Assembly (NCBI GenBank): GCA_024636315.1
Contig: JAGXHJ010000056.1
Location: forward strand, 1 to 41,657
Length of the DNA stretch: 41,657 nt
Reading direction: 5' to 3'
Source: Methylophaga sp.
Lineage (GTDB): Bacteria; Pseudomonadota; Gammaproteobacteria; Nitrosococcales; Methylophagaceae
The translations under genes were made by a program, and so were the position numbers. This document shows, one piece after another, positions 152-40,810 of the stretch. The notes under the pieces are model-generated. The model was not told where the DNA came from. It did no database searches and was given only the letters and a program-made list of their open reading frames with translations. Numbering within the stretch: the first letter of the stretch is position 1; each line of letters begins with the position of its first letter.

Positions 152-1072
152 TTGCCAGCGGTCATTAATGATATTGCAAACATTGTTAGCACCTTGGGCT
201 CTCAAGTCGTTACAGAAAAGCAAGACTATGAAGAATTTCTTAAGTCACTCACTTCACGCTTGAATGAATTAGACCAACATATTCAAATAACAAGTACTGA
301 AGATGCTGAAGCATTTGAGCACCGTAAAACGATGGGGCAAGCAGTTGAAGAACAAGTAATTGGTCTTCGTAACGAAGTAGTAGGCGCAGATGATCTCGAT
401 GCACTTAAATCAACGGTCAGTGATCGTCTAGACTTTCTGAATCAGCACTTTGAAAGTTACCGCCAATCAGACCATGAGCGTTTTACTCAGTCACAACTGC
501 AAATAAAAGAGCTCAACACCCGCTTACAGGCTATGGAACAAGAAAGTGTAGTATTACGTCACTCTGCCGAAAAATCACGTGAATTAGCACTCAAAGACGC
601 GTTGACATGTATCTGGAATCGACAAGCACTCAATGAAAATTTGGAAAAAGAATTTGTCCGCTGGCAGCGCTATCAAAAACCGCTCAGCCTAGTGGTATGG
701 GATATTGATTTATTCAAACGAGTTAATGATGAATATGGTCATGCGGCGGGTGACAAAGTTCTTAAGACCATCGCCCGTATTTTCGTGCAAGCAACACGTG
801 ATGCCGATTTTATCGCACGTTTTGGTGGCGAAGAATTTGTGGGGATTTTTCCTGAAACACGCTTAGAAGAGGCGCTCATTCTAGCCAATAAAATTCGGGA
901 AAAAGTAGCCAACTCAAAATTTCATTATGAAAATAAACCTGTTCCGATTACAGCTTCAGCAGGTTTAGCGACCTTTCGACCGAATGACACAATAGTTGAT
1001 GTATTTAAACGGGCTGATGCAGCACTGTATCGAGCAAAAGCAGCGGGGCGTAATTGCTGTCTTGCTGATTAA
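152..1072 (+). CDS. GGDEF diguanylate cyclase
   Basis: Predicted to make the second messenger cyclic di-GMP from two GTP. The first 135 or so residues are charged and helical, probably a coiled-coil sensor or dimer region, with no visible membrane segment. The GGDEF domain follows, with the entry motif DALTCIWNR, a GGEEF active-site loop at about residues 225-229 and an RDAD I-site five residues before it. The I-site implies product inhibition. The only usable start in frame is TTG at 152. The frame is open back to 107 without an ATG and no ribosome binding site is obvious, so the true N-terminus may lie upstream in another frame or the gene may be 5'-damaged. It is followed by a strong hairpin and converges on dsbA. 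Confidence 0.85.
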   Translation: MPAVINDIANIVSTLGSQVVTEKQDYEEFLKSLTSRLNELDQHIQITSTEDAEAFEHRKTMGQAVEEQVIGLRNEVVGADDLDALKSTVSDRLDFLNQHFESYRQSDHERFTQSQLQIKELNTRLQAMEQESVVLRHSAEKSRELALKDALTCIWNRQALNENLEKEFVRWQRYQKPLSLVVWDIDLFKRVNDEYGHAAGDKVLKTIARIFVQATRDADFIARFGGEEFVGIFPETRLEEALILANKIREKVANSKFHYENKPVPITASAGLATFRPNDTIVDVFKRADAALYRAKAAGRNCCLAD

Positions 1073-1079
1073 AATACAA

Positions 1080-1104
1080 CGGGGTTGGAATAATTCCAAC
1101 CCCG
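1080..1104. terminator. Bidirectional terminator between the GGDEF gene and dsbA
   Basis: A perfect inverted repeat with 11-base arms (CGGGGTTGGAA and its complement) and a 3-base loop lies between two convergent genes. T-rich or A-rich sequence flanks both sides, so it can serve both strands. Confidence 0.8.
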
Positions 1105-1119
1105 ATTTAACGTTAGCAA

Positions 1120-1749
1120 TTAATTCGATTCCTGTTGAATCAAGAAATCCACTACCTTAAGCATTTCAGGCATTCCACCCGCCATTGGTGCATCAACAAT
1201 GTATTTACCATTAACTATCATAGATGGCACACCAGTAATTCCTGATGTTTGGCTTAATAATAATGCTTTTTTCACTTTTCCTTGTACAGAAAACGAATTC
1301 ATTGTTTTAGCAAACATATCACGGTCGATGCCCTGCTCAGCAACAAAATCTAGTAATTGTTCTTCTGTTTCTAGCCTACGCTTTTCTACATGAATAGCAT
1401 TGAAAATGACTAAATGTAACTTTTCTAAATCACCCGTTGCTTCAGCGGTATAAAAGACTCTGGCTAATTGTAACCAACTATCACGAAAGATTGCTGGCAC
1501 ACGACTAAACGTTACATTTGCTGGTAATGTTTTTTCCCATTCGTGCACTTGTGGATCAAGGTTAAAACAATGAGGGCAACTATAAGAAAATAGCTCTATA
1601 ACTTCTACGACTTTTTCATCACTAGTAGCAATACGCTGCGCTGTAGGCTTGTAATGCACGCCTTCAACATAGGCAAGTGGTGTAGTCATACCTGCTAAAG
1701 GTAACAAGCTCGCACCTAATATAAGTATCGCTTTAATCATTTTCTTCAT
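1120..1749 (-). CDS. dsbA: Thiol:disulfide interchange protein DsbA
   Basis: Periplasmic thioredoxin-fold oxidase that introduces disulfides into exported proteins. A signal peptide covers roughly residues 1-22. The active site is CPHC at residues 58-61 (FSYSCPHCF), and the cis-proline loop is GVP at 173-175. The length of 209 residues is typical. It is the last gene of a leftward group resB-ccsA-dsbA, 29 bp after ccsA. This fits a shared role in periplasmic thiol chemistry and cytochrome c maturation. Confidence 0.95.
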   Translation of the reverse strand: MKKMIKAILILGASLLPLAGMTTPLAYVEGVHYKPTAQRIATSDEKVVEVIELFSYSCPHCFNLDPQVHEWEKTLPANVTFSRVPAIFRDSWLQLARVFYTAEATGDLEKLHLVIFNAIHVEKRRLETEEQLLDFVAEQGIDRDMFAKTMNSFSVQGKVKKALLLSQTSGITGVPSMIVNGKYIVDAPMAGGMPEMLKVVDFLIQQESN

Positions 1750-1778
1750 TTGAATCTTATCCTTATCTATAAATCAAT

Positions 1779-2936
1779 TTACAAAGTGCCGTAGGAATGT
1801 AGCCCTGACAAAAACATATTAACGCCCAAGAAGGCAAATATCGTCACAAATAAGCCTATAACAGCCCACCATGCCATTGGTCTGCCATGCCAGCCTTTAG
1901 TCATACGCATATGTAACCACGCCGCATAATTTAACCAGACGATCAAAGCCCACGTTTCTTTAGGATCCCAAGACCAATAACCTCCCCAAGCTTCCGCGGC
2001 CCACAATGCACCTAAAATAGTCGCTAAGGTGAAGAATGCAAAACCTAGAGCAATAGCTTTATACATAAGATCATCCATGACGGTCTTATCGGGCAATGTC
2101 GTTGCTAATAAACCTTGCGGGTTCACTGATTCACGCCATGATTTCAATAAATACGCTACGCCGATCATCGCAGCCATTGCAAACGAGCCATAGCCAACAA
2201 AGTTCGCAGGCACGTGAATCTTCATCCAATAACTTTGTAAGGCAGGCACTAATGGCTGTATCTCATGGGCTTGACGCTCAAATGTATACCAAAGCTGAAA
2301 TGCAACAGCAGAACTAATAACCAGTAATACAAAGCCACCTAAAGCACGCGTTTGATAGCGTCGCTCATAAAACAAATAAATTATTGAAGTGATAATCGCA
2401 AATAAAATAAAGACTTCATATAAATTACTGACTGGGATATGTCCGACATCTGGACCAATCAAATATGATTCCTTCCAGCGAACCATCAAACCAATCATGC
2501 CCATTGCACTTGCTGACCAAGTAAGCGCCGTGCCTATTTTTTGAGTAAATTCAGAACGCAGAAACAAGCCTGCAAAATATGTCACTGTCGCCATCACAAA
2601 CAAGGCACTCATCCACATAAAAGCAGATTGACTGGCTAACATATAATTCAAAAAGAAGTCACTATTAGCAAGCGCCAGATCATTCGCATACCGCTGAATG
2701 GCAAATAAACTAAGGAGCCCTACCACGACAATATACCAGCGGATACCCATCCAATTCTGACCTATCAACGCCATACAAAATGCGGTCAGCACCACAATGC
2801 CCACCTCGTAATAGTCAAAGACGTCGTAATACATCGTTAATAAGATGATGCCGGCTAAGACCATTGCCCCACGCCATAACCATTGTATGAATGGGCTACT
2901 TGTTTCGGTTAACATTATCCCTGCTAGTTTATTCAT
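1779..2936 (-). CDS. ccsA: Cytochrome c biogenesis protein CcsA/ResC (System II)
   Basis: Polytopic membrane protein that, with ResB/CcsB, exports haem and attaches it to apocytochromes c in System II. The tryptophan-rich WWD haem-handling motif is clear at residues 316-328 (WGGYWSWDPKETW). Conserved histidines are found near 166, 241 and 342. Many hydrophobic segments cover the 385 residues. It starts 37 bp after resB and ends 29 bp before dsbA, so the three are probably co-transcribed. Naming differs between groups (CcsA, CcsB, ResC). Confidence 0.93.
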   Translation of the reverse strand: MNKLAGIMLTETSSPFIQWLWRGAMVLAGIILLTMYYDVFDYYEVGIVVLTAFCMALIGQNWMGIRWYIVVVGLLSLFAIQRYANDLALANSDFFLNYMLASQSAFMWMSALFVMATVTYFAGLFLRSEFTQKIGTALTWSASAMGMIGLMVRWKESYLIGPDVGHIPVSNLYEVFILFAIITSIIYLFYERRYQTRALGGFVLLVISSAVAFQLWYTFERQAHEIQPLVPALQSYWMKIHVPANFVGYGSFAMAAMIGVAYLLKSWRESVNPQGLLATTLPDKTVMDDLMYKAIALGFAFFTLATILGALWAAEAWGGYWSWDPKETWALIVWLNYAAWLHMRMTKGWHGRPMAWWAVIGLFVTIFAFLGVNMFLSGLHSYGTL

Positions 2937-2973
2937 TAATGACTCTTCATTTATTAATACACAGTTAAGAACC

Positions 2974-4983
2974 CTAGTGAGGGCCAGAGTTCCCTGAGGT
3001 TAGTTTTAATTCATCACTGATTTGTTCAAAATAACCATCAAACTCACGGGGATTTCGATTACTCATTCCCGCCAGCAAGATATCCGTTCGACTGCCGTTC
3101 GCTTTCACTAAAGCCCAGAATCGACGTTGCGGTAAATAAAACAATAAAAACACCCCAATAATTAACATCGCACAACCAAAATAGACTACTGGTTTACCTG
3201 GCGAGTGTGCGATTTGTAGTCCACTCGCTTCTACGTGTTCATAGTCTGTAAGCTCAAAATAGACCGGCGAACCATAGCGTGGCAAGCTTCCTATAGCATC
3301 GACAGCATCTTGTAGAAATAATAATTGTGACTCACTAGGAGGTTGTTGTTCAGGTAAAGTCAAACCATTAACATACACTCGCGCTAATATTTCTCGCAAC
3401 ATGCTCAAATAAGCGGGACCTAAGGTCTCACGTTCAGCTTCCGGTAAAGTCGTTTCGATAAATACGGTTACATTAGAAAAACCACCCGCCACAAACATCT
3501 CGACTAATGTCATTAACGTATCGTGTAAGCTTTGTGCTAATTTTTCGTCACTATTTGCCACCGATTTAAGCGTGGTCGATGTCATTTCACGCGCAATCAC
3601 ATCAACTACGTTTTTATCATTTAAGCGTTGCAAAAAATGACTAAATCCTGTCAGACCGCCTTGGTCATCAAGCGGCAAATACAAGTAACCAAACTCATCG
3701 GCTGGGCTTTCGCGTACACCACTCAAGTAAAAGTCACGTCCATTACGTGTCACTGGCAACATGTAATTTTGATATTCTAATGCCTCACCAGTATTCGAAC
3801 GAAGCTTAAAGCCAATACTCGGGCCAAAATTACGCACGTTGTTAGGATCATCTTCAGTAGGGTCGGGATTAATATTAAATGGACGGAATGACGTTATTTC
3901 GAGTTGCGAAGAATTATCACCCCAGTGCATCATTCTCCGATCAAACACTTTTGTATCAAAACTAAGTGGTTCATTGCCCGCTTGACCATCGAGTGGCCAA
4001 GCATCAAGGGATAAAGCTGAGCCACCATCGCTAAAACTAGCCTGATATATCGCATAGCCTTTGTAGATTAAAGGATGATTCACCGCAATTGTAGTCGTCA
4101 AGGGCTCGGCTAAATCATCATCATAAACGACCAAATCAGATTCGAATGACTTGGGCTGTCCGGTTGCATAATGTTCAATACGAAAGTCTTTTACTTCTAC
4201 TCTAAAGGGCAGGTTTTGGACTAAATAACCATCACGCATCGCCACAAATGCCACACCTGATGACTGGCCTTCTGGAATATTCACACTACCCCGAAATGCT
4301 TGAGAGCCCACAGCAAGCTTGCTTTTATCAGGGATCTGGCTCAACGGTAAGTCACGTGTTTCTATGTTTATCCGTCCCTGCCATTCCGCGAATTTTAATG
4401 GCAAATTACTATCAATTAAGCCCCCAACGCAAATTACAACAATAGCTAGATGCGTCAATAAATAACCTAATCTGTTCATCCCTCCACGCATCGCTGACAC
4501 TAGGATTTCATCCGTTTTAGGTGTTTGTTTTACTCTAAAACCAAGTTTAGAAAAATTACTCTCTAATTTTGTTACGGTCTCCTCTGCCGGAGACTCAACT
4601 ACCCATGTAGCATTGTGCCGCATGGCTTGTAACGATTTACGCTGCACATGTGTACGCAAATTCCACACGTCACGTAGCATAGTAGGCCCATTTCTAATGA
4701 CGCAAACCGAGGTAGATGTCACTAATAAGACGAGAATAGAAAGAAACCATATGGCGCTGTAAACATCATACAATCCGGCTGATTCAAATAACTCAAACCA
4801 GAATGGGCCGAATTTAATTAGATAGTCAGAATAAGGCTGATTTTGTTGTAATACGGTGCCGATAATCGATGCTACAGCCAAGGCTAGCAACAGCGTGATC
4901 GCTAGATCCATTGAGCCTAAAAAAAGAAACAGGCGTTGACTGAATGATTTTCGAGATACAGGTAAATTATTGGTTTCAGACAT
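2974..4983 (-). CDS. resB: Cytochrome c biogenesis protein ResB
   Basis: Membrane partner of CcsA in System II cytochrome c synthesis. It has several N-terminal membrane segments (for example LFLFLGSMDLAITLLLALAV), a large periplasmic domain and a C-terminal membrane segment near VVYFGCAMLIIGVFLLFYLP. I chose the ATG at 4983 (protein begins MSETNN, 669 residues). The alternative GTG at 5052 adds 23 residues but overlaps the predicted terminator hairpin of the upstream cytochrome c4 gene, so it is unlikely. Confidence 0.9.
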   Translation of the reverse strand: MSETNNLPVSRKSFSQRLFLFLGSMDLAITLLLALAVASIIGTVLQQNQPYSDYLIKFGPFWFELFESAGLYDVYSAIWFLSILVLLVTSTSVCVIRNGPTMLRDVWNLRTHVQRKSLQAMRHNATWVVESPAEETVTKLESNFSKLGFRVKQTPKTDEILVSAMRGGMNRLGYLLTHLAIVVICVGGLIDSNLPLKFAEWQGRINIETRDLPLSQIPDKSKLAVGSQAFRGSVNIPEGQSSGVAFVAMRDGYLVQNLPFRVEVKDFRIEHYATGQPKSFESDLVVYDDDLAEPLTTTIAVNHPLIYKGYAIYQASFSDGGSALSLDAWPLDGQAGNEPLSFDTKVFDRRMMHWGDNSSQLEITSFRPFNINPDPTEDDPNNVRNFGPSIGFKLRSNTGEALEYQNYMLPVTRNGRDFYLSGVRESPADEFGYLYLPLDDQGGLTGFSHFLQRLNDKNVVDVIAREMTSTTLKSVANSDEKLAQSLHDTLMTLVEMFVAGGFSNVTVFIETTLPEAERETLGPAYLSMLREILARVYVNGLTLPEQQPPSESQLLFLQDAVDAIGSLPRYGSPVYFELTDYEHVEASGLQIAHSPGKPVVYFGCAMLIIGVFLLFYLPQRRFWALVKANGSRTDILLAGMSNRNPREFDGYFEQISDELKLTSGNSGPH

Positions 4984-5035
4984 ATCGTTATGGAACCCAA
5001 GTTTTTGGTACGTTAGGGTGGGGCTAATATAGAAA

Positions 5036-5061
5036 AGCCGCACAGTCTTCACTATGCGGCT
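5036..5061 (-). terminator. Terminator of the cytochrome c4 gene
   Basis: Read on the minus strand, AGCCGCA and TGCGGCT form a 7-bp stem followed by TTTTCTATAT, about 30 bp past the cytochrome c4 stop. It separates c4 from resB and argues against the upstream GTG start of resB. Confidence 0.65.
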
Positions 5062-5094
5062 ATATCTTTAAATTAAATCACCAGATTTAAAGGC

Positions 5095-5706
5095 TTAGTG
5101 CAAACCTGCAACATAAGCAGCAACGGCCGTCATTTCTTCGGCTGTCATTTTTGATGCAATATCACGCATCATGCTGTTTGGATCATTACTACGTGTACCC
5201 GCCGCAAAAGATTTTAATTGCGCTTCAACATAAGCACTATGCTGGCCTGATAGTGCTGGCCATTTTGCCGCCGGAACGCCAGCACCAGTAGGACCATGAC
5301 AGGCCATACATGCTGGTAAACCAGATTCTTTATTACCCGCGCGGAATATTTGTTGACCTGCTACGGCTAAATCTTCTGAGACCGCACCTGGAGTAATCTT
5401 ATTACCGGAATAATATGCCGCAATATCGGCCATATCTTGTTCACTTAAAGCGGCGACCATCGGTGCCATTACAGCATTGCTACGAACACCACTTTTAAAT
5501 TCTGTAAGCTGTTTGACAAGATAGGCTTCACCTTGCCCCGCTAATTTTGGAAACATGTCCGATGGGCTATTGCCATCAGCACCATGGCAAGCCGCGCACA
5601 TCATCGCTTTGCTTTTACCAGCGGCTGCATTTCCAGCTGCCATCAAAGAAGTAGACATGGCCAAGGTCATACCTATTAGCGCCATCAGTAACATTTTCTT
5701 CATCAT
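5095..5706 (-). CDS. Dihaem cytochrome c4
   Basis: Periplasmic electron carrier with two class I cytochrome domains. After a signal peptide (about residues 1-23), haem motifs CAACH (37-41) and CMACH (133-137) each begin one domain. Methionine ligand candidates follow in each half. The internal duplication and 203-residue length are typical of cytochrome c4, which usually feeds a cytochrome oxidase. It is transcribed divergently from engB with 85 bp between the starts. This c4/engB arrangement is common in gammaproteobacteria. Confidence 0.93.
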   Translation of the reverse strand: MMKKMLLMALIGMTLAMSTSLMAAGNAAAGKSKAMMCAACHGADGNSPSDMFPKLAGQGEAYLVKQLTEFKSGVRSNAVMAPMVAALSEQDMADIAAYYSGNKITPGAVSEDLAVAGQQIFRAGNKESGLPACMACHGPTGAGVPAAKWPALSGQHSAYVEAQLKSFAAGTRSNDPNSMMRDIASKMTAEEMTAVAAYVAGLH

Positions 5707-5791
5707 AATTCCTAAAATTCCACTTTCATTAAATAAAACTCTTGGTATGCTACCTCTATTAGCTTAATTTTGCACCTACGAGTTCACCACT

Positions 5792-6424
5792 ATGTCACAG
5801 TTTTATCGCCAAGCGCATTACACTATCAGCGCTACTCAATTATCCGAATTACCGCCCGATATCGGTCTCGAAGTTGCTTTTGCGGGACGCTCAAACGCTG
5901 GCAAGTCGAGTGCTATTAATACCATCACCGATCACAAAGCGCTTGCCCGCATCAGTAAAACGCCTGGCCGCACTCAAATGATCAACTTTTTTGCGCTAGA
6001 TGACAGCCGCACACTGGTCGATCTTCCTGGTTATGGCTACGCTAAAGTGCCCGAGCAAATGAAGATCCGCTGGCAACAAAATCTAGGTCAATATCTTGAC
6101 ACCCGTCAGTCACTTCAAGGCTTGATGATCATGATGGATATTCGTCATCCTCTCAAACAATTTGATATTCAAATGATTCGCTGGGCAAATCAAAAAGATT
6201 TAGATGTACATATTTTGCTGACTAAATCAGATAAATTCAAACACGGCGCGGCAATGGCCAGTTTACATAGTGTTCTGGCTGAAATAAAAAAATTGGAACT
6301 CAACGCGAGTGCACAACTTTTTTCATCGCTCAAAAAAACAGGCCGAGATGAAGCCATCGCCAAATTAGATAGCTGGTTTTTATTGAATGAAACATCTCCT
6401 GAGCTTGAGCCCACTAGCGAATAA
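5792..6424 (+). CDS. engB: Ribosome biogenesis GTPase EngB/YsxC
   Basis: Small GTPase needed for 50S ribosomal subunit assembly. The P-loop GRSNAGKS is at residues 32-39. The G3 element is DLPGYGYAK, and the TKSD guanine-specificity motif is seen in LLTKSDK. The 210-residue length is normal. The start at 5792 gives the usual short lead into the G domain. Its stop is 13 bp before soxC. Confidence 0.95.
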   Translation: MSQFYRQAHYTISATQLSELPPDIGLEVAFAGRSNAGKSSAINTITDHKALARISKTPGRTQMINFFALDDSRTLVDLPGYGYAKVPEQMKIRWQQNLGQYLDTRQSLQGLMIMMDIRHPLKQFDIQMIRWANQKDLDVHILLTKSDKFKHGAAMASLHSVLAEIKKLELNASAQLFSSLKKTGRDEAIAKLDSWFLLNETSPELEPTSE

Positions 6425-6437
6425 TTAAGGAATACAG

Positions 6438-7697
6438 ATGACAAAGCCCACCGATAGTCGCCGCCAGTTTTTACAAAAAGTAGCTCTGGGTGGAGCTTTC
6501 GCGGGTACCTTCAGTCTACCAGTGTGGTCTGATCAGACTAAACCAGACTTAGTTGATGACTTACCCGAGTGGATGAAAAAACCGGGCAAAGGTTTCAGTA
6601 ACTATGGTCAGCCTTCCCCCCATGAACAACAGGTTATTCGTTGGATATCAGCTAATCCGGACGCGCTAGGTAACGGCGTGTCATGGACACCGCTACATGA
6701 CTTACAAGGCACCATCACCCCCAACGGACTTCATTATGAACGTCATCACAATGGTGTACCGCAAATTGATCCTGCACAACATCTATTGCTCATTGATGGT
6801 TTAGTCGATAAGCCACTCCGTTTTGATGTAGCCAGCCTATTACGCTACCCGATGATTTCGCGCACTTGTTTTATCGAATGTGGCGGCAACAGTAATAGCG
6901 GTTGGCGTACTAACCCTATTCAATCAAAAGCTGGTTATGCACACGGCTTAGTCTCTAATGCAGAATGGACAGGGATCCCAGTTAAACTTTTATTAAAAGA
7001 AGCCGGCGTCAAAACAGATGCCAAATGGATTATCGCGGAAGGTGCTGATGGCGCGGCACTCAATATCAGCATTCCCTTAGAAAAACTACTCGATGATGCC
7101 CTACTTGCACTCTATCAAAATGGTGAACGATTACGCCCTGAAAACGGCTACCCGATGCGTTTAGTCTTACCCGGATGGGAAGGCATTTTAAATGTTAAAT
7201 GGTTACGACAATTAAGGCTCAGCAAAGAACCTGCGATGTCTCGTGATGAAACGTCGCAATATACAGAATTACAGCCAGATGGAACGGCAAGACAATTCAC
7301 GTTCATCATGGAAGCAAAATCGTTAATCACCTCGCCCTCTCTTGGCATGAGGTTGCTGGATAATCCTGGTATCTACCAAATTAGTGGTCTTGCATGGTCA
7401 GGTCACGGCAAAATTACTCGCGTCGAAATCTCTGCTGATGGCGGTGATACATGGACTGATGCAGAACTGCATGGCCCCATCCTCGACCGTGCTTTTACCC
7501 GTTTCAGTTTACCTTGGCATTGGCAAGGTGATTATTCAGTATTACAAAGTAGAGCTACAGATGAAACCGGTTACGTTCAACCGACGCGAGATGATCTCGT
7601 GGCTAATCGTGGTACGTATGGTTTTTTTCATTACAACGCCATAGTCAGCTGGGAAATCACCGAAACAGGAGACATCAACCATGTCTACGGGATTTAA
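6438..7697 (+). CDS. soxC: SoxC-type sulfite/sulfane dehydrogenase, molybdenum subunit
   Basis: Periplasmic molybdopterin enzyme of the sulfite oxidase family that oxidises sulfite or the sulfane sulfur of Sox intermediates. A twin-arginine signal (SRRQFLQK, residues 7-14) begins the protein. The likely Mo-ligand cysteine is C148 in the FIECGGNS signature typical of SoxC. The C-terminal Mo-co dimerisation domain includes VEISADGGDTWTDAEL. A good ribosome binding site (AAGGA) precedes 6438. Its end overlaps the start of the cytochrome subunit by 17 bp, indicating translational coupling. No other sox genes are in view, so a stand-alone sulfite dehydrogenase role is as likely as a full Sox pathway. 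Confidence 0.85.
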   Translation: MTKPTDSRRQFLQKVALGGAFAGTFSLPVWSDQTKPDLVDDLPEWMKKPGKGFSNYGQPSPHEQQVIRWISANPDALGNGVSWTPLHDLQGTITPNGLHYERHHNGVPQIDPAQHLLLIDGLVDKPLRFDVASLLRYPMISRTCFIECGGNSNSGWRTNPIQSKAGYAHGLVSNAEWTGIPVKLLLKEAGVKTDAKWIIAEGADGAALNISIPLEKLLDDALLALYQNGERLRPENGYPMRLVLPGWEGILNVKWLRQLRLSKEPAMSRDETSQYTELQPDGTARQFTFIMEAKSLITSPSLGMRLLDNPGIYQISGLAWSGHGKITRVEISADGGDTWTDAELHGPILDRAFTRFSLPWHWQGDYSVLQSRATDETGYVQPTRDDLVANRGTYGFFHYNAIVSWEITETGDINHVYGI

Positions 7698-8217
7698 TTT
7701 TCTAAGTAGTCTTTTGTTAATCGCATGTTTTTCACACAGCTATGCCGATGCCGAGCATCAATCATTAGGCAAACCAGCAGAACAACTCAGTACACAAGCA
7801 CAATGGAATTTAACCATTACCCCTGATGGTAAAGGTCTACCAATAGGTAAGGGCTCATCCGAACAAGGTGCTAAAATTTTTGCTTTGAAATGTGCCGCCT
7901 GTCATGGTCCTGCAGGTATTGGCGGTAGTGCAGAACCTTTAGTCGGTGAAGTGGGTTCACTCACCAGCGAATACCCCGAAAAAACAATAAACAGTTACTG
8001 GCCCTATGCCACGACATTATTTGATTACATCCGTCGCGCCATGCCTATTGATGCACCCTTTTCCCTTTCTGCCGATGAAGTATATGCCTTGTGTACCTAT
8101 CTATTGAGCGAAGATGATATAATCCCGACAGACCAAGAACTCAACGAAGAAAATCTGCCTCAGGTCTCGATGCCAAATCGTGATGGCTTTATCGCTGTTT
8201 ACCCTGATAAATACTAA
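7681..8217 (+). CDS. soxD: SoxD-like monohaem cytochrome c subunit
   Basis: Electron acceptor partner of the preceding molybdoenzyme. It has a signal peptide (residues 1-22, cleaved near SYADA) and one haem motif CAACH (71-75). RRAMPIDAPFSLSADEVYAL holds the probable axial methionine. It is 178 residues long and overlaps soxC by 17 bp, with GGAGA inside soxC as its ribosome binding site. It is shorter than two-domain SoxD proteins. Confidence 0.82.
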   Translation: MSTGFNFLSSLLLIACFSHSYADAEHQSLGKPAEQLSTQAQWNLTITPDGKGLPIGKGSSEQGAKIFALKCAACHGPAGIGGSAEPLVGEVGSLTSEYPEKTINSYWPYATTLFDYIRRAMPIDAPFSLSADEVYALCTYLLSEDDIIPTDQELNEENLPQVSMPNRDGFIAVYPDKY

Positions 8218-8246
8218 TAAATTCAATATTTAAGGATCCCTTTTAT

Positions 8247-10751
8247 ATGAGCCCACGTTACAGTCGTGTAGTAAGCCCAAACCCAGATTTATTCGATCTG
8301 CCGCCATTAGGCATGGATAAAAAATCCATTATTTATGATTTCAAAAACTATTACGGTAATCATCTTGCCCAAGATAAAGGCAGTGCATCAGGCCATTATT
8401 TATATTCATCTTTAGCAATCACCCTACGTGACCGCTTGTTTGAACGGATGAAACACACCAAACACACTTACGCAGAAAGCAAGTGTAAGCAAGCCTATTA
8501 TCTATCCATGGAATTCCTAATGGGTCGCGCAATGGGTAATGCCGCACTGAATTTGGGCCTAGATGACGTTTCTACTAAGGCAATGCACGATCTTGGCTTA
8601 AACTTTGAAGAATTGACGGAACTAGAGCACGATGCTGGCTTAGGTAATGGTGGCTTAGGGCGCCTTGCCGCATGTTTTATCGATAGCTGCGCAACCCTAC
8701 AGTTACCGGTTACCGGTTATGGTATTCGTTATGAATACGGTATGTTTCAACAACGTATCGAAGATGGTAACCAAATTGAAATGCCCGATCATTGGTTACG
8801 AGATGGTAATCCATGGGAACTAGAGCGTCCTGAATTCACCCAACGCGTTAAGTTCGGTGGTCACACTGAATTCCGTAAAAATAGCCATGGTAAAATGCAA
8901 GTTTACTGGGTTGAATCTAATGATGTGTTAGCCGTGCCTTATGATTTACCTGTACCAGGTTACCAAAATGGTACGGTCAATAAATTACGCTTGTGGAAAT
9001 CGGCGGCTACCGATGAATTTAACTTAGAAGACTTTAACTCTGGCTCTTATACTGAAGCAGTTGCGTCTAAAAATGCGGCTGAAAATATCAGTATGGTGCT
9101 TTACCCAAATGACTCGAGTGAAAATGGTAAAGAATTACGCCTACGTCAGCAGTATTTCCTTGCTTCAGCTAGCTTGCAGGATATTCTTGATGATTGGGTC
9201 ACCACCCATAGTGAAAAGTTTGATGATTTTGCTGAAAAAAACTGCTTCCAACTGAATGATACTCATCCAACTGTCGCTGTCGCCGAATTAATGCGTCTAT
9301 TAATGGATGAGCATGGTTTAAGTTGGGATAAGGCATGGAAAATCACCACTAAAACTATGGCTTACACTAACCATACTTTATTGCCAGAGGCGCTAGAACG
9401 TTGGTCAGTCAACATGTTTAGTCATTTACTTCCTCGCGTACTAGAAATCATTTATGAAATTAATGCACGTTTTTTAAGTGAAGTGGCCAACCACTGGCCT
9501 GGCGATAAAGCACGCCTTGCTCGCATGTCAATCATCGAAGAAGGCCATCAACAAAGTGTGCGCATGGCACATTTAGCTATTGTCGGTAGTTACTCGGTCA
9601 ATGGTGTTGCGGCACTACATTCAGAATTATTACAAAAAGGTTTATTTAACGACTTTTACCAGCTATGGCCGGAAAAATTCAACAATAAAACTAATGGTGT
9701 TACTCAGCGTCGCTGGATGGCCTGGTGTAATCCACAATTACGTCAACTACTTAATGACACCATCGGTGATAAATGGATTACTCAATTGAGTGAACTAGAA
9801 AATTTAACGCCGTATGCCACTAAACCGAAGTTCCAAGAACAATGGCGGCAAGCAAAACTAGACAATAAAAAACGCCTAGCTGATTTAGTGCAAGAAAGCT
9901 GTGGCGTAACGTTTAATACCGATGCAATGTTTGATATTCAAGTAAAACGTATTCATGAATACAAACGCCAACTATTAAATGTATTACACGTTATTCACCT
10001 TTATGATCGAATTAAACGTGGTGATACTTTAGGTATGACTAAACGGTGCGTGTTATTTGGTGGTAAAGCGGCTCCAGGCTACGCCATGGCGAAAGATATC
10101 ATCAAACTGATCAACAATGTGGCTCAAGTTATCAATAATGATTCGGACATTGGTGATTGGCTAAAAGTTGTATTTTTACCAAACTACCAAGTTTCAGCAA
10201 TGGAAATTATCTGTCCAGCCGCCGATCTATCAGAACAAGTTTCAACTGCAGGTAAGGAAGCATCTGGCACCGGTAACATGAAATTTATGATGAATGGTGC
10301 CATCACTATCGGAACGCTCGATGGTGCTAACATCGAAATTCGTGAAGAAGTCGGTGATGAAAACTTCTTCCTGTTCGGCTTAACGGAAGAGGAAGTTGTG
10401 ACAGCGCGTGTAGGCTACAACCCACGCGCTATCATCGCTCAGGATCCAGATCTTAAACGCGTTGTCGATTTATTAGAGGGTGGTCATTTTAATCAGTGTG
10501 AACCAAATCGTTTTGGCAATATTATTAATGCCTTTACTGACCACAATGATCCATGGATGACTATTGCAGATTTCCGTAGTTATGTTGATGCACAACATAA
10601 AGCAAGTCTGGCATATCAAGATATTCCACGCTGGACAGAAATGGCTATTCTCAATTGCGCGCACAGTGGTAAATTCTCTACTGATCGAACAATGGAAGAA
10701 TACAATAATGAAATTTGGAAATTAACAAAAGTCGCACCAAAACATAAATAA
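8247..10751 (+). CDS. glgP: Glycogen phosphorylase
   Basis: PLP-dependent enzyme that releases glucose-1-phosphate from glycogen. The 834-residue length is typical. The pyridoxal phosphate lysine is K679 in EASGTGNMKFMMNGA. GHDAGLGNGGLGRLAACF-like sequence near residue 130 is a conserved N-terminal signature, here preceded by ELE. The start at 8247 has AAGGA upstream. It is probably transcribed alone, or as the tail of engB-soxCD, and ends at a hairpin. Confidence 0.96.
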   Translation: MSPRYSRVVSPNPDLFDLPPLGMDKKSIIYDFKNYYGNHLAQDKGSASGHYLYSSLAITLRDRLFERMKHTKHTYAESKCKQAYYLSMEFLMGRAMGNAALNLGLDDVSTKAMHDLGLNFEELTELEHDAGLGNGGLGRLAACFIDSCATLQLPVTGYGIRYEYGMFQQRIEDGNQIEMPDHWLRDGNPWELERPEFTQRVKFGGHTEFRKNSHGKMQVYWVESNDVLAVPYDLPVPGYQNGTVNKLRLWKSAATDEFNLEDFNSGSYTEAVASKNAAENISMVLYPNDSSENGKELRLRQQYFLASASLQDILDDWVTTHSEKFDDFAEKNCFQLNDTHPTVAVAELMRLLMDEHGLSWDKAWKITTKTMAYTNHTLLPEALERWSVNMFSHLLPRVLEIIYEINARFLSEVANHWPGDKARLARMSIIEEGHQQSVRMAHLAIVGSYSVNGVAALHSELLQKGLFNDFYQLWPEKFNNKTNGVTQRRWMAWCNPQLRQLLNDTIGDKWITQLSELENLTPYATKPKFQEQWRQAKLDNKKRLADLVQESCGVTFNTDAMFDIQVKRIHEYKRQLLNVLHVIHLYDRIKRGDTLGMTKRCVLFGGKAAPGYAMAKDIIKLINNVAQVINNDSDIGDWLKVVFLPNYQVSAMEIICPAADLSEQVSTAGKEASGTGNMKFMMNGAITIGTLDGANIEIREEVGDENFFLFGLTEEEVVTARVGYNPRAIIAQDPDLKRVVDLLEGGHFNQCEPNRFGNIINAFTDHNDPWMTIADFRSYVDAQHKASLAYQDIPRWTEMAILNCAHSGKFSTDRTMEEYNNEIWKLTKVAPKHK

Positions 10752-10763
10752 ATCAAAAACAGG

Positions 10764-10794
10764 GCTACGATGGTTATAAGTAAACCATCGTAGC
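10764..10794 (+). terminator. Terminator after glgP
   Basis: GCTACGATGGTT and AACCATCGTAGC form a perfect 12-bp stem with a 7-base loop, 12 bp after the glgP stop. The downstream T content is modest. Confidence 0.75.
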
Positions 10795-10908
10795 TCCATT
10801 TGTTATGCTTTCCTCACCTGTAAAAACTTATCTCCTAGCAGTCACAAATTAAAGTCAGTATAATTGCAGATTGGTCTAAAACTCATTCTGCACCAAAAGA
10901 TTCAAAAT

Positions 10909-10947
10909 GCGCCTGTAGCTCAGTTGGATAGAGTACCAGTTTCCGAA
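10909..10947 (+). pseudogene. Truncated 5' half of a tRNA-Arg gene
   Basis: The sequence matches the first 38 or so positions of the complete tRNA-Arg(CCG) 67 bp downstream, including acceptor strand GCGCCTG, the D-arm and anticodon loop TTCCGAA. It differs at a few bases in the D-loop and anticodon stem. It then breaks off, and the following bases do not complete the anticodon stem. A break at the anticodon loop is a usual crossover point of tRNA-targeting integrases. Confidence 0.7.
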
Positions 10948-11013
10948 GCTTGCACTCATGAGTAATATAGGCACAACAACTAACACTCAATTCGGGTAAA
11001 ATAGAAAGTCATC

Positions 11014-11090
11014 GCGCCTGTAGCTCAGCTGGATAGAGTACTGGTTTCCGAAACCAGCGGTCACAGGTTCAAGTCCTGTCAGGCGCACCA
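11014..11090 (+). tRNA. tRNA-Arg (anticodon CCG)
   Basis: A full cloverleaf can be folded: acceptor GCGCCTG/CAGGCGC, D-stem GCTC/GAGT, anticodon stem CTGGT/ACCAG with loop TTCCGAA, T-arm ACAGG/CCTGT with loop TTCAAGT, discriminator A and encoded CCA. Anticodon CCG reads CGG (arginine). A TAAAAT -10-like box lies about 20 bp upstream. Confidence 0.95.
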
Positions 11091-11237
11091 CTTCCCTAAA
11101 AAACGACCCTCAGTCTAAGTGGTCACAAACTCCTAAAATTCAGTCTGTGCCCAAATCGTGCCAATTCTGTGCCACCCGATTTTGAACATTTTGAAATCAC
11201 ATCACTTTTGATTGTTAGTCTAAAAGTCCATTTCGGG

Positions 11238-11309
11238 TTTCTAAGCTGCCTGTTCGGCAGTGAACACAGCTAATGAGGCTAGGGCGTTACATTTACATTT
11301 CTAAGCTGC
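11238..11309 (-). CRISPR. Remnant of a type I-F CRISPR array (one full repeat, one spacer, one cut repeat)
   Basis: On the minus strand, 11265-11238 is a 28-base sequence starting GTTCACTGCC and ending GGCAGCTTAGAAA. This is the type I-F repeat architecture, with inverted repeat CTGCC/GGCAG, as in Yersinia, E. coli and Pseudomonas arrays. Exactly 32 bases away (11266-11297, the usual I-F spacer length), the last 12 bases of a second repeat appear (11309-11298) before the sequence passes into an IS21 transposase fragment. No repeat is found 60 bp to the left, so 11238 is the trailer end. The leader side and any cas genes are missing from the window. Identification of the repeat is from memory of I-F consensus sequences. 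Confidence 0.78.
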
Positions 11310-11713
11310 TGTTTACCTTTACGAATAGTGGTGAAATCCACCTGCATTTGTTCGCCTGGCTCTGTTTCAAACCGCACGATAGGTTCTACCATCACCTGCT
11401 TGTACGGAAATACAAAGTTACGCAAGATAGTGATCCCACCTTGGTAGCCTTGCTCGCGTATTTCACGCAGCAATACCACAGCAGGGATCCATTTAGGCTT
11501 GGCGGCTTCAATCCGAACGAGAATATAGGGTTTAAATGATTCCAATTTAGTCGATCGTGCTGGACTCGACGTGTAAGCCGGAAGTTCAATGGGCTGTTTT
11601 AAATATTTACACACAGTATTTTTTGAAATACCGAGCTGTCTGGCAATGGCTTTAATGCCATGCCCTTGTCGATGTAATACGTGGATCTCCACAAATATCT
11701 CCTTGGTCAACAT
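11279..11713 (-). pseudogene. IS21-family transposase IstA, N-terminal fragment
   Basis: The first 137 or so residues look like IstA. There is an N-terminal HTH (GHGIKAIARQLGISKNTVCKYL, residues about 18-39), and the start of the DDE catalytic domain at GEQMQVDFTTIRKGK with the first catalytic Asp. The reading frame then leaves IS21 sequence at KQQL and runs out through a cut CRISPR repeat. The protein is 144 residues against roughly 400-500 for full IstA, and istB is absent, so the element cannot move on its own. Confidence 0.8.
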
Positions 11714-11806
11714 AGTAATACGACCTTAATGGTAAAAGGTCATCATAATTGCCCAAGGGGGTCAATTTTACTACGGTGCTAAGGAGTCAGTTTTGCAGCT
11801 GTTGCA
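11310..11806 (-). mobile_element. IS21-family element remnant
   Basis: Contains the istA fragment and the non-coding terminal region upstream of it. The terminal region includes the stretch around 11756-11806 (GTCAATTTTACTACGGTGCT and AGTCAGTTTTGCAGCTG), which resembles the repeated end sequences of this family. The left break is at the CRISPR repeat. The right edge is approximate because I cannot see a clear target duplication. Confidence 0.6.
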
Positions 11807-12027
11807 AAAGAACTTGATAATGCTGGGTCAACCACACTAGGTACAAGGAACGTCAGACCTATGTGACGAATAGCATGTGGCGCTATAAGTATCATTAATG
11901 CTATTTTAAAGACTTTGTAGATAGCCAAGGCCCAACACTCCATCTTGCCAACATAGAAAAAACGATCAAACTCAACACTAGCTGAGCCCCAAAAACTTCT
12001 AAAGTATTCTTGATTTATCTCCAACAA
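11779..12027 (-). CDS. Hypothetical protein, probably 3'-truncated by IS21 sequence
   Basis: An 82-residue open frame with one hydrophobic stretch (ALAIYKVFKIALMILIAPHA). It is not a family I recognise. Its last 15 or so codons run into the terminal sequence of the IS21 remnant, so the natural C-terminus is probably lost. It has no clear ribosome binding site. It could be the surviving N-terminus of a membrane protein or a chance frame. Confidence 0.3.
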   Translation of the reverse strand: MLEINQEYFRSFWGSASVEFDRFFYVGKMECWALAIYKVFKIALMILIAPHAIRHIGLTFLVPSVVDPALSSSFATAAKLTP

Positions 12028-12124
12028 CTGTACATTTAATAAAATTCACCTTGCTTCCATAGCATTGCTACTATGATGAGTGTCAAGGGTTTCCGCTCTT
12101 CCCTTGACACACTTCAAGTTCATA

Positions 12125-12481
12125 TTATTTTTTATGAGGCAGCTTATTACTTTTTAGATCAGGGTGAAACCAACTACTTTTGCCGTCAAAAGCTGAATTT
12201 TCAGCAATATGACCCGTAGGTAGTGGACGCTGCATTGAGTCGTGAATAGCTTGTAACTCCGATGTACTTCTGACTAGTCCATCAAAAGCTGCTAAGTGTC
12301 CCGGTGTTATAGGTCGTAACTGTGAGTCGTGTATTGCCTGTAATTCTGGAGTATTCTGAATTCGTTCTCGTCCACTGTCATTATGTCCATGAAAAGGAAA
12401 TGAGTCTGCTAAGCCCTGTCCACTTATAAGTAAAAAACCTAAGCTCGAAAGTATTAATTTAGTTTTAGTTGAATTTTTCAT
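12125..12481 (-). CDS. Small secreted protein with HDS/QRPL tandem repeats
   Basis: A 118-residue protein with a clean signal peptide (residues 1-25, SSLGFLLISGQGLADS). The mature part contains at least two copies of a 30 or so residue unit: TPELQAIHDSQLRPITPGHL..AFDG and TSELQAIHDSMQRPLPTGHI..SAFDGKSSW. Conserved positions are EL, IHDS, RP, GH and AFDG. Each unit carries two histidines. I do not know the family and assign no function. An AGGT ribosome site precedes the ATG at 12481. A third, better conserved unit lies in the fragment just upstream on the same strand. Confidence 0.7.
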   Translation of the reverse strand: MKNSTKTKLILSSLGFLLISGQGLADSFPFHGHNDSGRERIQNTPELQAIHDSQLRPITPGHLAAFDGLVRSTSELQAIHDSMQRPLPTGHIAENSAFDGKSSWFHPDLKSNKLPHKK

Positions 12482-12484
12482 GTG

Positions 12485-12793
12485 TTACCTCTTTAAATTT
12501 ATTTGTTTTACATTCATATAGATGTAGATACACCTTTTTCTTGAAATTATTTTATTTCGGTTTATCTGATCCTTCGTCACTCGATAGTGATGAAGGATCA
12601 GATAAACCCGTATTAGCAGCAAGGTATCCAGGGTGAATACCTTGCATTTTTTAGCTAGTTGATCATCATGCATCGGCGCAACCCAGGTACTCTTGCCATC
12701 AAAAGCTGAATTTGAACCAATATGCCCAGGATGAAGTGGACGCTGCATTGAATTATGGATCTCTTGAAGTTCAGGCGTATTTTTTGTAATCAA
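12485..12793 (-). pseudogene. Partial copy of the tandem-repeat protein gene
   Basis: The first 49 or so residues carry one repeat unit (NTPELQEIHNSMQRPLHPGH..SAFDGKSTW) very like that of the neighbouring secreted protein, also at DNA level. There is no signal peptide, and the frame begins only at a TTG at 12793. The remaining residues are low-complexity and pass through a long palindrome. I read it as a 5'-truncated duplicate sitting just past the groEL terminator. It could still be read as the C-terminal part of a damaged larger gene. Confidence 0.5.
12559..12608. repeat. Near-perfect 23-bp-arm palindrome
   Basis: Arms 12559-12581 and 12586-12608 pair at 22 of 23 positions (the odd pair is G:U in one RNA strand) around a CGAT loop. 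No T-run follows on either strand, so it is not a standard terminator. It lies inside the repeat-protein gene fragment. Confidence 0.8.
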
Positions 12794-12820
12794 GACATTT
12801 AATATTGTAAATCTTCGCTA

Positions 12821-14600: not shown

Positions 14601-14888
14601 TTATTCAACAATCGCCATGATGTCTTCTTCACGCATCACTAATAACTCTTCGCCAACGACTTTTACTGTTTGGCTGGCGTATTTACCGAACAAGACTGTA
14701 TCGCCAACTTTAACGTCTAAAGCAATCAGTTTGCCGCTGTCATCTCTTTTGCCAGCACCAATCGCTTGAACTACACCTTGGTCAGGTTTTTCTGTTGCAC
14801 TATCAGGAATCACAATGCCTGAATCAGTAGTACGCTCTTCTTCAGAACGCTTAACAATAACGCGGTCGTGTAACGGACGAATTTTCAT
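14601..14888 (-). CDS. groES: Co-chaperonin GroES
   Basis: 10-kDa lid of the GroEL chamber. The full 95-residue protein begins [14 protein letters not shown] and contains the mobile loop [23 protein letters not shown] ribosome site lies 7 bp before the ATG. It is the first gene of groES-groEL, with a 5' leader of about 90 nt from the predicted sigma-54 start. Confidence 0.97.
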
Positions 14889-15450: not shown

Positions 15451-15570
15451 AATTGTCTTCTACATTACTTTCATTAAGTAATTGTGGGATAACGTCAGTC
15501 GTCAATGAAAGTCATTATAAAAAACTTTTCGACTGGTAATTATAATTTTAGTTTGAGGAGAGATAACACA

Positions 15571-17148
15571 ATGGCAATTAGCTTAGCTACACAGGCGGCA
15601 ACAGATGCTCTGGCACTCAATAGAGCACCAACTAGCGTTGGCGCACAGGAAGTCCATAAATGGATGCAAGATTTCAACTGGGACTTTAAAAATAATCGCA
15701 CTAAGTACCCAACCAAGTACACAATGGCAAATGATACAAAAGAGCAATTCAAACTGATCGCTAAAGAATATGCACGTATGGAATCAGTAAAAGATGAGCG
15801 TCAGTTTGGTAGCCTGCAAGATGCGTTAACACGAATGAATGCGGGTAACCGAGTAGCGCCTAAGTGGGGTGAGACCATGAAAGTGGTATCAAACTTCTTG
15901 GAAGTGGGCGAATACAACGCAATTGCTGCTTCAGCAATGTTGTGGGACAGTGCCTCTTCACCAGAGCAAAAAAATGGCTATTTAGGCCAGGTGATGGATG
16001 AAATTCGCCATACACATCAAACGGGTTATGTAAATTACTACTTCTCTAAATACTTCCACGATCCAGCAGGTCACACTGATGCACGTCGCGTACGTACATT
16101 AGGTCCACTATGGAAAGGCATGAAACGGGTATTTGCGGATGGTTTTATCTCTGGTGATGCGGTGGAATGTTCTATCAACTTACAGTTGGTTGGTGAGGCT
16201 TGTTTCACCAACCCACTAATCGTTGCAGTGACAGAGTGGGCTTCAGCCAACGGCGATGAAATTACGCCAACTGTTTTCCTTTCAATTGAAACAGATGAGT
16301 TGCGTCACATGGCAAACGGCTACCAAACAGTCGTATCCATTGCCAATGATCCCGCAGCCGCTAAATATCTAAATACCGATCTAAATAATGCCTTCTGGAC
16401 ACAGCAAAAGTATTTCACGCCAGTGCTAGGTATGTTGTTTGAATACGGTAGTAAATACAAAGTTGAACCATGGGTTAAAACATGGAATCGCTGGGTTTAC
16501 GAAGATTGGGGCGGTATCTGGATTGGTCGTTTAGGTAAATACGGTGTGCAATCTCCAGCAAGTTTGAAAGATGCTAAAAAAGATGCATATTGGGCTCACC
16601 ATGACTTGTTCTTACTAGCTTACGCAGTATGGCCAACAGGTTTCTTCCGTTTAGCACTTCCTTCTAAAGAAGATGCTGATTGGTTTGAAGCGAACTACCC
16701 AGGTTGGTATGACCATTACGGCAAAATCTATGAAGAATGGCGCGCTCGCGGTTGCGAAGATCCATCAAGCGGATTTATACCATTACAGTGGTTTGTTGAA
16801 AACAACCACGAAATCTATATCGATCGCGTATCACAAGTGCCTTTCTGCCCATCATTAACTAAGGGTGCAAGTTCATTGCGGATCCATGAGTACAACGGTA
16901 AAAAACATGCATTTAGTGATGAGTGGGGCGAACGTATGTGGCTAAGTGAGCCAGAGCGTTATGAGTGTCAAAACGTATTTGAACAATACGCAGGACGCGA
17001 GCTTTCAGAAGTGGTTGAAGAGCTTTGGGGTGTTCGTAGTGATGGCGTTACATTAATTGGCCAACCACATGTTACTAAAGATGGAAAATTGTGGACCTTA
17101 GATGATATTAAACGCATTAATTGTGTTTTTAAAGATCCATTAGCTTAA
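15571..17148 (+). CDS. mmoX: Soluble methane monooxygenase hydroxylase alpha subunit MmoX
   Basis: Catalytic subunit that oxidises methane to methanol at a carboxylate-bridged di-iron centre. From the ATG at 15571 (GAGGAG nine bases upstream) numbering aligns directly with Methylococcus MmoX. The ligands E114, E144, H147, E209, E243 and H246 are all present, as are the gate and active-site residues around T213. The length is 525 residues. An in-frame ATG at 15505 adds 22 residues unlike the family and is rejected. The odd point is position 151: characterised sMMO has Cys (HTHQC), here it is Thr (codon ACG), followed by Gly152. First gene of mmoXYBZDC, under a -24/-12 promoter. Close resemblance along the whole length favours true sMMO over butane or propane monooxygenases. 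Confidence 0.97.
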   Translation: MAISLATQAATDALALNRAPTSVGAQEVHKWMQDFNWDFKNNRTKYPTKYTMANDTKEQFKLIAKEYARMESVKDERQFGSLQDALTRMNAGNRVAPKWGETMKVVSNFLEVGEYNAIAASAMLWDSASSPEQKNGYLGQVMDEIRHTHQTGYVNYYFSKYFHDPAGHTDARRVRTLGPLWKGMKRVFADGFISGDAVECSINLQLVGEACFTNPLIVAVTEWASANGDEITPTVFLSIETDELRHMANGYQTVVSIANDPAAAKYLNTDLNNAFWTQQKYFTPVLGMLFEYGSKYKVEPWVKTWNRWVYEDWGGIWIGRLGKYGVQSPASLKDAKKDAYWAHHDLFLLAYAVWPTGFFRLALPSKEDADWFEANYPGWYDHYGKIYEEWRARGCEDPSSGFIPLQWFVENNHEIYIDRVSQVPFCPSLTKGASSLRIHEYNGKKHAFSDEWGERMWLSEPERYECQNVFEQYAGRELSEVVEELWGVRSDGVTLIGQPHVTKDGKLWTLDDIKRINCVFKDPLA

Positions 17149-37813: not shown

Positions 37814-38050
37814 ATGGGTGACACATACCTAACAACCGAAGAACTTGCGGAACGTATTAAATATGATCCACGTACTATTCGTGACAGATTGAAAGATTCC
37901 GTACTGCTGGAAGGGATCCATTACATCCGTCCATTTGGAGGACGAAAGATCCTTTATCTATGGGAGGCTATTGAGCGTGATATTAGTAAAACATCTCAAC
38001 AAAATTCAATGATGATCCCTATGGCATCAGGAGGTGTTTGTCATGGGTAA
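37814..38050 (+). CDS. Excisionase-like DNA-binding protein
   Basis: A 78-residue HTH_17-type protein (YLTTEELAERIKYDPRTIRD, then HYIRPFGGRKILYLWEAIER), the pattern of MerR-like excisionases. AAGGAGA lies 8 bp upstream. It overlaps the integrase start by 8 bp, so the two are coupled. It probably directs excision. Confidence 0.8.
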   Translation: MGDTYLTTEELAERIKYDPRTIRDRLKDSVLLEGIHYIRPFGGRKILYLWEAIERDISKTSQQNSMMIPMASGGVCHG

Positions 38051-39239
38051 TATTCGTTCTAGAAATGATAATGGCAAATTATTTTTCGATTTCAGTTATA
38101 AAAACAAACGTTGCCGAGAGCAAACGATGCTTGATGACACTCCTGCCAATCGTAAAAAGATGGGGCAAATGTTGTCTCGCATCGAAGCGGAAATAACCTT
38201 AGGGCAATTTGATTATGGTCAGTATTTCCCTGATAGCCCGAGAGCGCAGCAGTTTCATGATTTGAAACGACGTAAAGGCATGGCTTTAGCGGATACGCCA
38301 TTGTTTGCTGACTTCACGGAAGTGTGGCTGAACGAGATGCAGGCGCAGTGGCGTAAGTCTCATTCAGAGGGTGTGGTCACCAATTTACGTAAATATGTAT
38401 TGCCAGCATTTGGTGATAAATCTCTGGGGGAGATTACTAAAGCTGAAATCCTTGAGTTTCGGGCAAAGATAGCTAAGGTCACAAAGAAAAATGGTGGCAA
38501 TCTGTCGGCAACCCATATCAATCATATTATTACGCCGTTACGGATGATTTTGAACGAGGCAGCTAATCGTTATGATTTTAGTTCCCCTTATCATGGCATC
38601 AAGTCGCTTAAAGTACCTAAAACAGATGTGGAGCCGTTTACGATTGATGAGGTGAAGTTAATCATTAACACGGTTAGGCCTGACTTTAAACGTTATTATC
38701 TGGTGCGATTTTTTACGGGTATGCGTACCAGCGAGATCGATGGTTTACAGTGGCAATTTGTTGATTTTGAACGCCGGCAGATTTTAGTACGCCAAGCCTT
38801 GGTACGTGGTGAGTTGGTGTATACCAAAAATGATGGTTCATTTCGGGCAATTGATATGTCACAGATGGTGTTTGATGCGCTGCAAGAACAGCATAAAGTC
38901 ACTGGTGATAAGCAGTTTGTGTTTTGTAATCAAGATGGCAATGCCTTGTATCACCACAATGTGAGTCTACGTGTGTGGCATCCTTTACTTCGGCATCTTG
39001 GACTTCGTAAACGCAGACCCTACCAATCTCGTCATACCGCAGCCACATTATGGTTAGCTTCAGGCGAGAGTCCGGAATGGATTGCTAGGCAGATGGGACA
39101 CACCACAACGGAGATGTTGTTTAGGGTGTATTCCCGTTTTGTACCGAATCTGACACGCCAAGATGGTTCAGCATTTGAGCGTTTATTAAGTAGTCATCTG
39201 CAATTAGATATGAGCAATCCGGAGGTAAATGATGATTAG
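38043..39239 (+). CDS. Tyrosine-type integrase
   Basis: Site-specific recombinase of a genomic island or integrative element. It has an N-terminal arm domain of DUF3596 type (MGNIRSRNDNGKLFFDF) and a SAM-like core-binding domain near residues 85-180. The catalytic domain has Arg in FFTGMRTSEIDGLQW, RPYQSRHTAATLWLASGE (box II) and MGHTTTEMLFRVYSRFVP with the Tyr nucleophile. I use ATG 38043 (398 residues), which has GGAGGTG six bases upstream. It appears intact. Confidence 0.93.
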   Translation: MGNIRSRNDNGKLFFDFSYKNKRCREQTMLDDTPANRKKMGQMLSRIEAEITLGQFDYGQYFPDSPRAQQFHDLKRRKGMALADTPLFADFTEVWLNEMQAQWRKSHSEGVVTNLRKYVLPAFGDKSLGEITKAEILEFRAKIAKVTKKNGGNLSATHINHIITPLRMILNEAANRYDFSSPYHGIKSLKVPKTDVEPFTIDEVKLIINTVRPDFKRYYLVRFFTGMRTSEIDGLQWQFVDFERRQILVRQALVRGELVYTKNDGSFRAIDMSQMVFDALQEQHKVTGDKQFVFCNQDGNALYHHNVSLRVWHPLLRHLGLRKRRPYQSRHTAATLWLASGESPEWIARQMGHTTTEMLFRVYSRFVPNLTRQDGSAFERLLSSHLQLDMSNPEVNDD

Positions 39240-39513
39240 CACTTTACCTATGAATACAGCCGTTGCACACACTAGTGAGAAAATGATTCGACGATTAGCA
39301 TCAGCACTGTGTTGCGCCTATAACATTCCTCAAGGCGACCAATTTGTCATGTTTATTGGTCATGGTGAAGAAGCAAATAATCATCATGCTGTTGAATCGT
39401 GGGTTGAATCGACCTTGAGTGATTTAGATGAGTCTACCGCTAAAGCCATATTGCCTCATTTAGTCGAACGTTTTGGTCAAGAATTACAACAGTGGGAGTC
39501 ATTAGCATGGTGA
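39229..39513 (+). CDS. Hypothetical 94-residue protein of the integrative module
   Basis: Not recognised. A soluble, mostly helical small protein (SEKMIRRLASALCCAYNIPQ, then SWVESTLSDLDESTAKAILP). GGAGG lies 4-8 bp before ATG 39229. It overlaps the integrase end by 11 bp and the next gene by 7 bp, so it belongs to one translationally coupled unit. Confidence 0.75.
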   Translation: MMISTLPMNTAVAHTSEKMIRRLASALCCAYNIPQGDQFVMFIGHGEEANNHHAVESWVESTLSDLDESTAKAILPHLVERFGQELQQWESLAW

Positions 39514-40783: not shown

Positions 40784-40810
40784 CGTTAAAATCAAACCAC
40801 GGAGTTGACC

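Follow-up and report, generated by a model that had tools for sequence, protein, structure and literature searches.

Type I-F and other CRISPR-Cas systems are documented on islands at tRNA genes in Vibrio and its relatives (PMC6360697). Isolated I-F repeats form another described group, the solitary repeat units (SRUs): in the published search the repeat had to be truly solitary, with no partial repeat within 100 bp, and units with such second repeats were classed or discarded as mini-arrays (PMC10651486). Positions 11238-11309 of a Methylophaga sp. contig (the window, i.e., the whole 41,657-nt stretch of DNA analysed here) can be compared with both. We consider this sequence, with a probability of about 0.87, to be the inert trailer-end stump of a lost type I-F array which once lay beside a tRNA-Arg(CCG) attachment site. 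The locus includes the following features:

10909..10950, plus strand: duplicated 5'-half fragment of a tRNA-Arg gene (attachment scar), ending at TTTCCGAA, with about 90% identity to the corresponding half of the complete tRNA-Arg copies
11014..11090, plus strand: complete tRNA-Arg (anticodon CCG), found by ARAGORN
11144..11173, plus strand: TGTGCC-type direct repeats 3' of the tRNA, conserved 3' of tRNA-Arg(CCG) in the congeners G008 and G017
11238..11265, minus strand: complete type I-F CRISPR repeat, the trailer-end copy, matching congener arrays exactly and having a second copy in the same genome, on contig C21
11266..11297, minus strand: 32-nt spacer TGTAAATGTAACGCCCTAGCCTCATTAGCTGT, its length taken from the sequence, with no target in the collections listed below
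11298..11309, minus strand: final 12 nt of a second, in-register repeat (crRNA sense), with the breakpoint within microhomology to istA
11310..11805, minus strand: 5' part of an IS21-family element, recognised by IstA similarity, with a truncated istA (start codon at 11713) and a probable IS end near 11805

The sequence-only reading had described a 28-base I-F-like repeat, a spacer of exactly 32 bases and the terminal 12 bases of a second repeat. The first holds to the base as a perfect type I-F repeat, which reads TTTCTAAGCTGCCTGTTCGGCAGTGAAC on the plus strand and GTTCACTGCCGAACAGGCAGCTTAGAAA in crRNA sense (minus strand); it is 28 nt long, has the CTGCC/GGCAG stem and is identical to the repeats of known I-F arrays. 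The spacer and the partial repeat were found at the same positions. The latter reads TTTCTAAGCTGC on the plus strand, which corresponds to the opening 12 nt of the repeat on that strand and to its closing 12 nt in crRNA sense. As in an array, a 32-nt spacer separates repeats that are in register, the repeat to partial repeat period being 60. The second repeat is broken off after 12 nt, so 11238-11309 is a remnant rather than an array, with one complete repeat instead of at least two and with istA replacing the leader side. On the minus strand the crRNA-sense order is 12 nt of repeat, spacer, full repeat and tRNA-side flank; hence the surviving end is the trailer end, and istA now occupies the leader side. 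The earlier argument that the 60-base period and the inverted CTGCC/GGCAG element make chance unlikely is borne out by the numbers: the 28-mer is expected in 4e-11 chance copies (2.36 Mb genome, both strands), and the probability of the 12-mer match in register is 2.6e-7, allowing for any of four plausible spacings.

Among the relatives searched, three species of the same genus (G020, G025 and G028) have arrays whose repeat is identical to the 28-mer. The counted copies in these arrays, from highest to lowest, are 81, 58 and 44. In G020, csy3, csy4 and more I-F1-like genes adjoin the array, in G025 a Cas5fv, Cas6f and Cas1 set lies beside it, i.e., an I-F2 system, and in G028 Cas1 is on a different contig from the array. 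Comparison with the repeats of these congeners gave an exact match, in two of three cases beside I-F1 or I-F2 cas genes. No tRNA genes were found around the three arrays in the stretches read, so I-F loci occupy different sites within the genus. The G020 (I-F1; L015) and G025 (I-F2; L016) loci have the identical 28-nt repeat and similar leaders within one genus. Both also have a zeta-toxin-like gene between the CRISPR leader and cas6f, on the minus strand (L015 11305-12371 and L016 9024-9617), which in the G020 locus is followed by a ParD-like antitoxin gene.

The genome that carries the remnant is a draft of 2.36 Mb, 88% complete. In agreement with the earlier observation that no cas gene is nearby, Csy4, Cas1 and Csy3 had no match anywhere in this draft; the same searches matched Cas1 and Csy3 in congeners and Csy4 in a control genome. 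Real absence of these three genes is therefore likely, not proven, since the missing part may harbour cas genes. No further array was found among the assembled contigs; outside the window, the repeat occurs just once, in truncated form on contig C21.

This second stump lies within C21:13007-13295, which is 85% identical to window 10941-11262 and covers the attachment scar, a copy of tRNA-Arg, the flank downstream of it and 25 nt of the I-F repeat present in the window. The tRNA-Arg copy has an internal deletion and was not accepted by ARAGORN. The repeat is cut off by a different sequence than in the window: almost directly after the stump lies a piece with similarity to 40619-40798 of the window, where the integrative element at the right end has a small gene. 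Since the tRNA flank joins the CRISPR repeat in the same way in both copies, this junction was formed once and then duplicated; separate events removed the leader sides. C21 may belong to a related strain; by tetranucleotide profile, C21 is closer to the window than the congener G020 is.

The integrative element (window 38034-40783) comprises a tyrosine integrase with an arm-binding domain, an HD/TraI_2-like protein and the small gene mentioned above. C21 (L013, G000:C21) carries the Shango defence genes SngA, SngB and SngC at 349-6141, as annotated by PADLOC. A 1755-aa protein encoded at 7542-12809 on the minus strand adjoins both the Shango genes and the tRNA scar. It has a weak Phage_integrase match near residues 1274-1394 and no other match; a second tyrosine-recombinase-like motif was seen by eye in the middle of the protein.

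The tandem of a truncated 5' tRNA-Arg half and a complete tRNA-Arg is also present in the congener G008. The TGTGCC-type repeats resemble integrase arm-type sites, and the tRNA-Arg(CCG) site looks like an attachment site of integrative elements. The similarity of the window flank to G008 and G017 ceases approximately where the I-F repeat begins, and there is no CRISPR sequence at the tRNA-Arg(CCG) flank of either congener despite the shared TGTGCC-type repeats. The flank joining tRNA and CRISPR sequence had no match among GTDB genomes, a collection that may leave out the genome studied here. The setting is chromosomal, near glgP and tRNA-Arg, with no phage genes adjacent. Further along the window, a methane/phenol/alkene hydroxylase subunit (PF02332) is encoded at 15505-17148, after a Cpn10 gene at 14601-14888. 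The sequence-only reading was right about the remnant and missed the tRNA-Arg attachment context, the second truncated copy and the nature of the istA junction, internal and with microhomology.

The IS fragment belongs to the IS21 family by similarity of its IstA transposase and resembles the ISPsy4 subgroup: the product of ORF 11279-11713 (minus strand) shares 59% identity with ISPsy4 IstA over the latter's first 143 residues and matches NCBIfam transpos_IS21 with E=7.6e-32. The probable IS end lies at about 11805, from where congeneric IS copies match. Where a complete IS21-family element would have istA-istB between two terminal repeats, the fragment retains just an N-terminal istA portion and a single probable end, and its junction with the CRISPR sequence is not an IS end. 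The similarity to istA ends at or just inside the partial repeat. A CAGC-GCTTA sequence overlaps the 12-nt partial repeat and also aligns with ISPsy4 istA (window AAACAGCAGCTTAGAAA, CRISPR repeat AACAGGCAGCTTAGAAA, ISPsy4 istA CGTCAGCCGCTTAAGG). As it is common to the repeat and istA, the exact breakpoint is ambiguous within the microhomology. The earlier claim that istA directly follows the remnant stands, with istA running from about 11310, except that the precise joining point is not fixed and the junction is internal to istA. Judging from the aligned sequences, the breakpoint is an internal istA point within the microhomology and not a transposon end, and a recombinational deletion would be its simplest account. 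The istA relatives examined continue with their own coding sequence at this point and have neither spacer nor repeat inside, so none of them contains the 72 bp as a normal internal part.

The sequence-only reading suggested that the spacer may record a past invader, and the searches gave no such result. No target was found in IMG/VR (two exact 20-mers and two versions with every sixth base free), in phage and plasmid collections (blastn; only 22-nt matches at E ~3, in phages), in congeneric genomes (3 mismatches) or in GTDB genomes (20-mer). The spacer has no match elsewhere in its own genome at up to 3 mismatches, nor in the rest of the window, where the best alignment has 12 mismatches. The minus-strand RNA of the unit has no unusual fold (z 0.34), promoter-like sites at the remnant are at chance level, and no terminator-like site lies within the unit.

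The sequence-only reading had also offered an alternative, a solitary repeat of the kind mobile elements use against I-F systems. Such a repeat would act as an RNA anti-CRISPR (Racr), its RNA being bound by host Cas6f and Cas7f and blocking assembly of the I-F effector. We regard this as improbable for the remnant, though the least improbable of the alternatives. It would fit the lack of detected cas genes, the attachment hotspot, a repeat that is perfect and duplicated in the genome, and the presence in congeners of I-F systems open to inhibition. However, a second partial repeat stands in register beyond the 32-nt spacer, 60 nt from the first, so the repeat is not solitary in the sense of the SRU search; the unit has no terminator, and its promoter-like sites are those expected by chance. 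The location is chromosomal rather than phage or plasmid, and the neighbours seen are the IS21 fragment and host genes. The phage-borne units that we did find have a spacer of about 20 nt and a terminator, unlike the remnant.

Two such units were found. One (L014, G007:C7, 2360-2470, minus strand) consists of a near-perfect I-F repeat, a spacer of about 21 nt, another I-F hairpin, which is degenerate, and a hairpin that strongly resembles a terminator (z -5.75). It is located shortly upstream of terminase and portal genes in a phage region of the congener G007, which is without Cas1. With its short spacer and double hairpin, this unit looks like an RNA anti-CRISPR. The other (L077, IMGVR_UViG_2888680948_000003, 1262-1372, plus strand) combines the exact window repeat with a spacer of about 20 nt, another I-F hairpin and a terminator. 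It lies beside a holin gene of an unrelated viral contig and was the only match to a strict gap pattern for double-hairpin units in IMG/VR. Whole units gave only short repeat-stem matches against the phage collection. Going by their build, both units resemble RNA anti-CRISPRs, and the published SRU search would discard the L077 unit because of its nearby partial repeat (PMC10651486). They may hold more general interest than the remnant itself.

It is very unlikely that the two stumps are more than debris, in that an integrative element targeting tRNA-Arg carries the trailer-end I-F repeat as part of its conserved end, with the repeat RNA interfering with or serving host I-F systems. Also very unlikely is an orphan array of minimal size that is still served in trans by Cas proteins encoded in the unassembled part of the genome. 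The incompleteness of the draft and the exact match of the repeat to functional congeneric arrays speak for it; against it, Cas1, Csy3 and Csy4 are all missing and no further array turned up in the assembled part. In addition, with the second-repeat stem lost, Cas6f would probably not achieve the normal 5' handle-spacer release unless 12 nt suffice.

A guide-array remnant of a Tn7-like I-F3 CRISPR-associated transposon is hardly conceivable: such elements do carry I-F repeats and insertions cluster at this tRNA-linked site, but the spacer matches neither the rest of the window nor, at up to 3 mismatches, the rest of its own genome, and no Tn7 genes are among the scanned window proteins. A TniQ search was empty in this genome, but also in the control genomes, and carries no weight. 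Chance or IS-derived sequence is just as implausible, and both the chance match and the normal IS21 part were rejected, since the exact 28-mer with its negligible expectation recurs in congener arrays and the istA relatives have no such unit, even if their CAGC-GCTTA at the junction resembles part of the second repeat.

Overall, the stump of a lost array is the preferred reading. The proposal of an orphan type I-F remnant cut by an IS21 fragment is supported by the perfect repeat, the second repeat in register, the lack of Cas1, Csy3 and Csy4 matches and the congener arrays; that the lineage once had a fuller array here gains support from these arrays and from the second stump. Presumably, an integrative element that uses the tRNA brought in the array or rearranged it, perhaps by delivery on an island that was then cut back. 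No intact island carrying the array was found, and the island origin rests on context. Recombination of the second repeat with an IS21 istA that shares the CAGC-GCTTA-like microhomology may then have removed the leader-side part. Cas6f processing cannot form a normal crRNA without a leader, cas genes and the second-repeat stem. Lacking cas genes and leader, the stump would give no working crRNA and would persist as debris. The loss may be recent, as an old relic would be expected to have drifted and the repeat that survives is perfect. The remnant is real and ordinary, genome debris and not a new system; it is linked to a tRNA attachment hotspot and changes little beyond that.

Compared with described systems, the remnant resembles the Vibrio I-F islands in that I-F sequence adjoins a tRNA gene with attachment-type repeats, but it has no adjacent integrase and no intact island (PMC6360697). 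RacrIF1 likewise has one complete I-F repeat and no cas genes, whereas the remnant has in addition a spacer of full length and part of a second repeat, and is without phage genes and terminator (PMC10651486). The L014 and L077 units differ from it in build, with their short spacer, second hairpin and terminator. Like other orphan CRISPR arrays, it consists of repeat-spacer remains without cas genes nearby; it is shorter than most of those reported, with one complete repeat and truncation by an IS21 fragment. With the arrays of G020, G025 and G028 it shares the identical 28-nt repeat and the mostly 60-nt period. Against its one repeat and one spacer, with no leader and no cas genes found, the G020 and G025 arrays have tens of repeats, a leader and cas genes, and are not at tRNA genes. 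The remnant documents that one member of the genus has lost I-F immunity, while large I-F arrays persist in other members.
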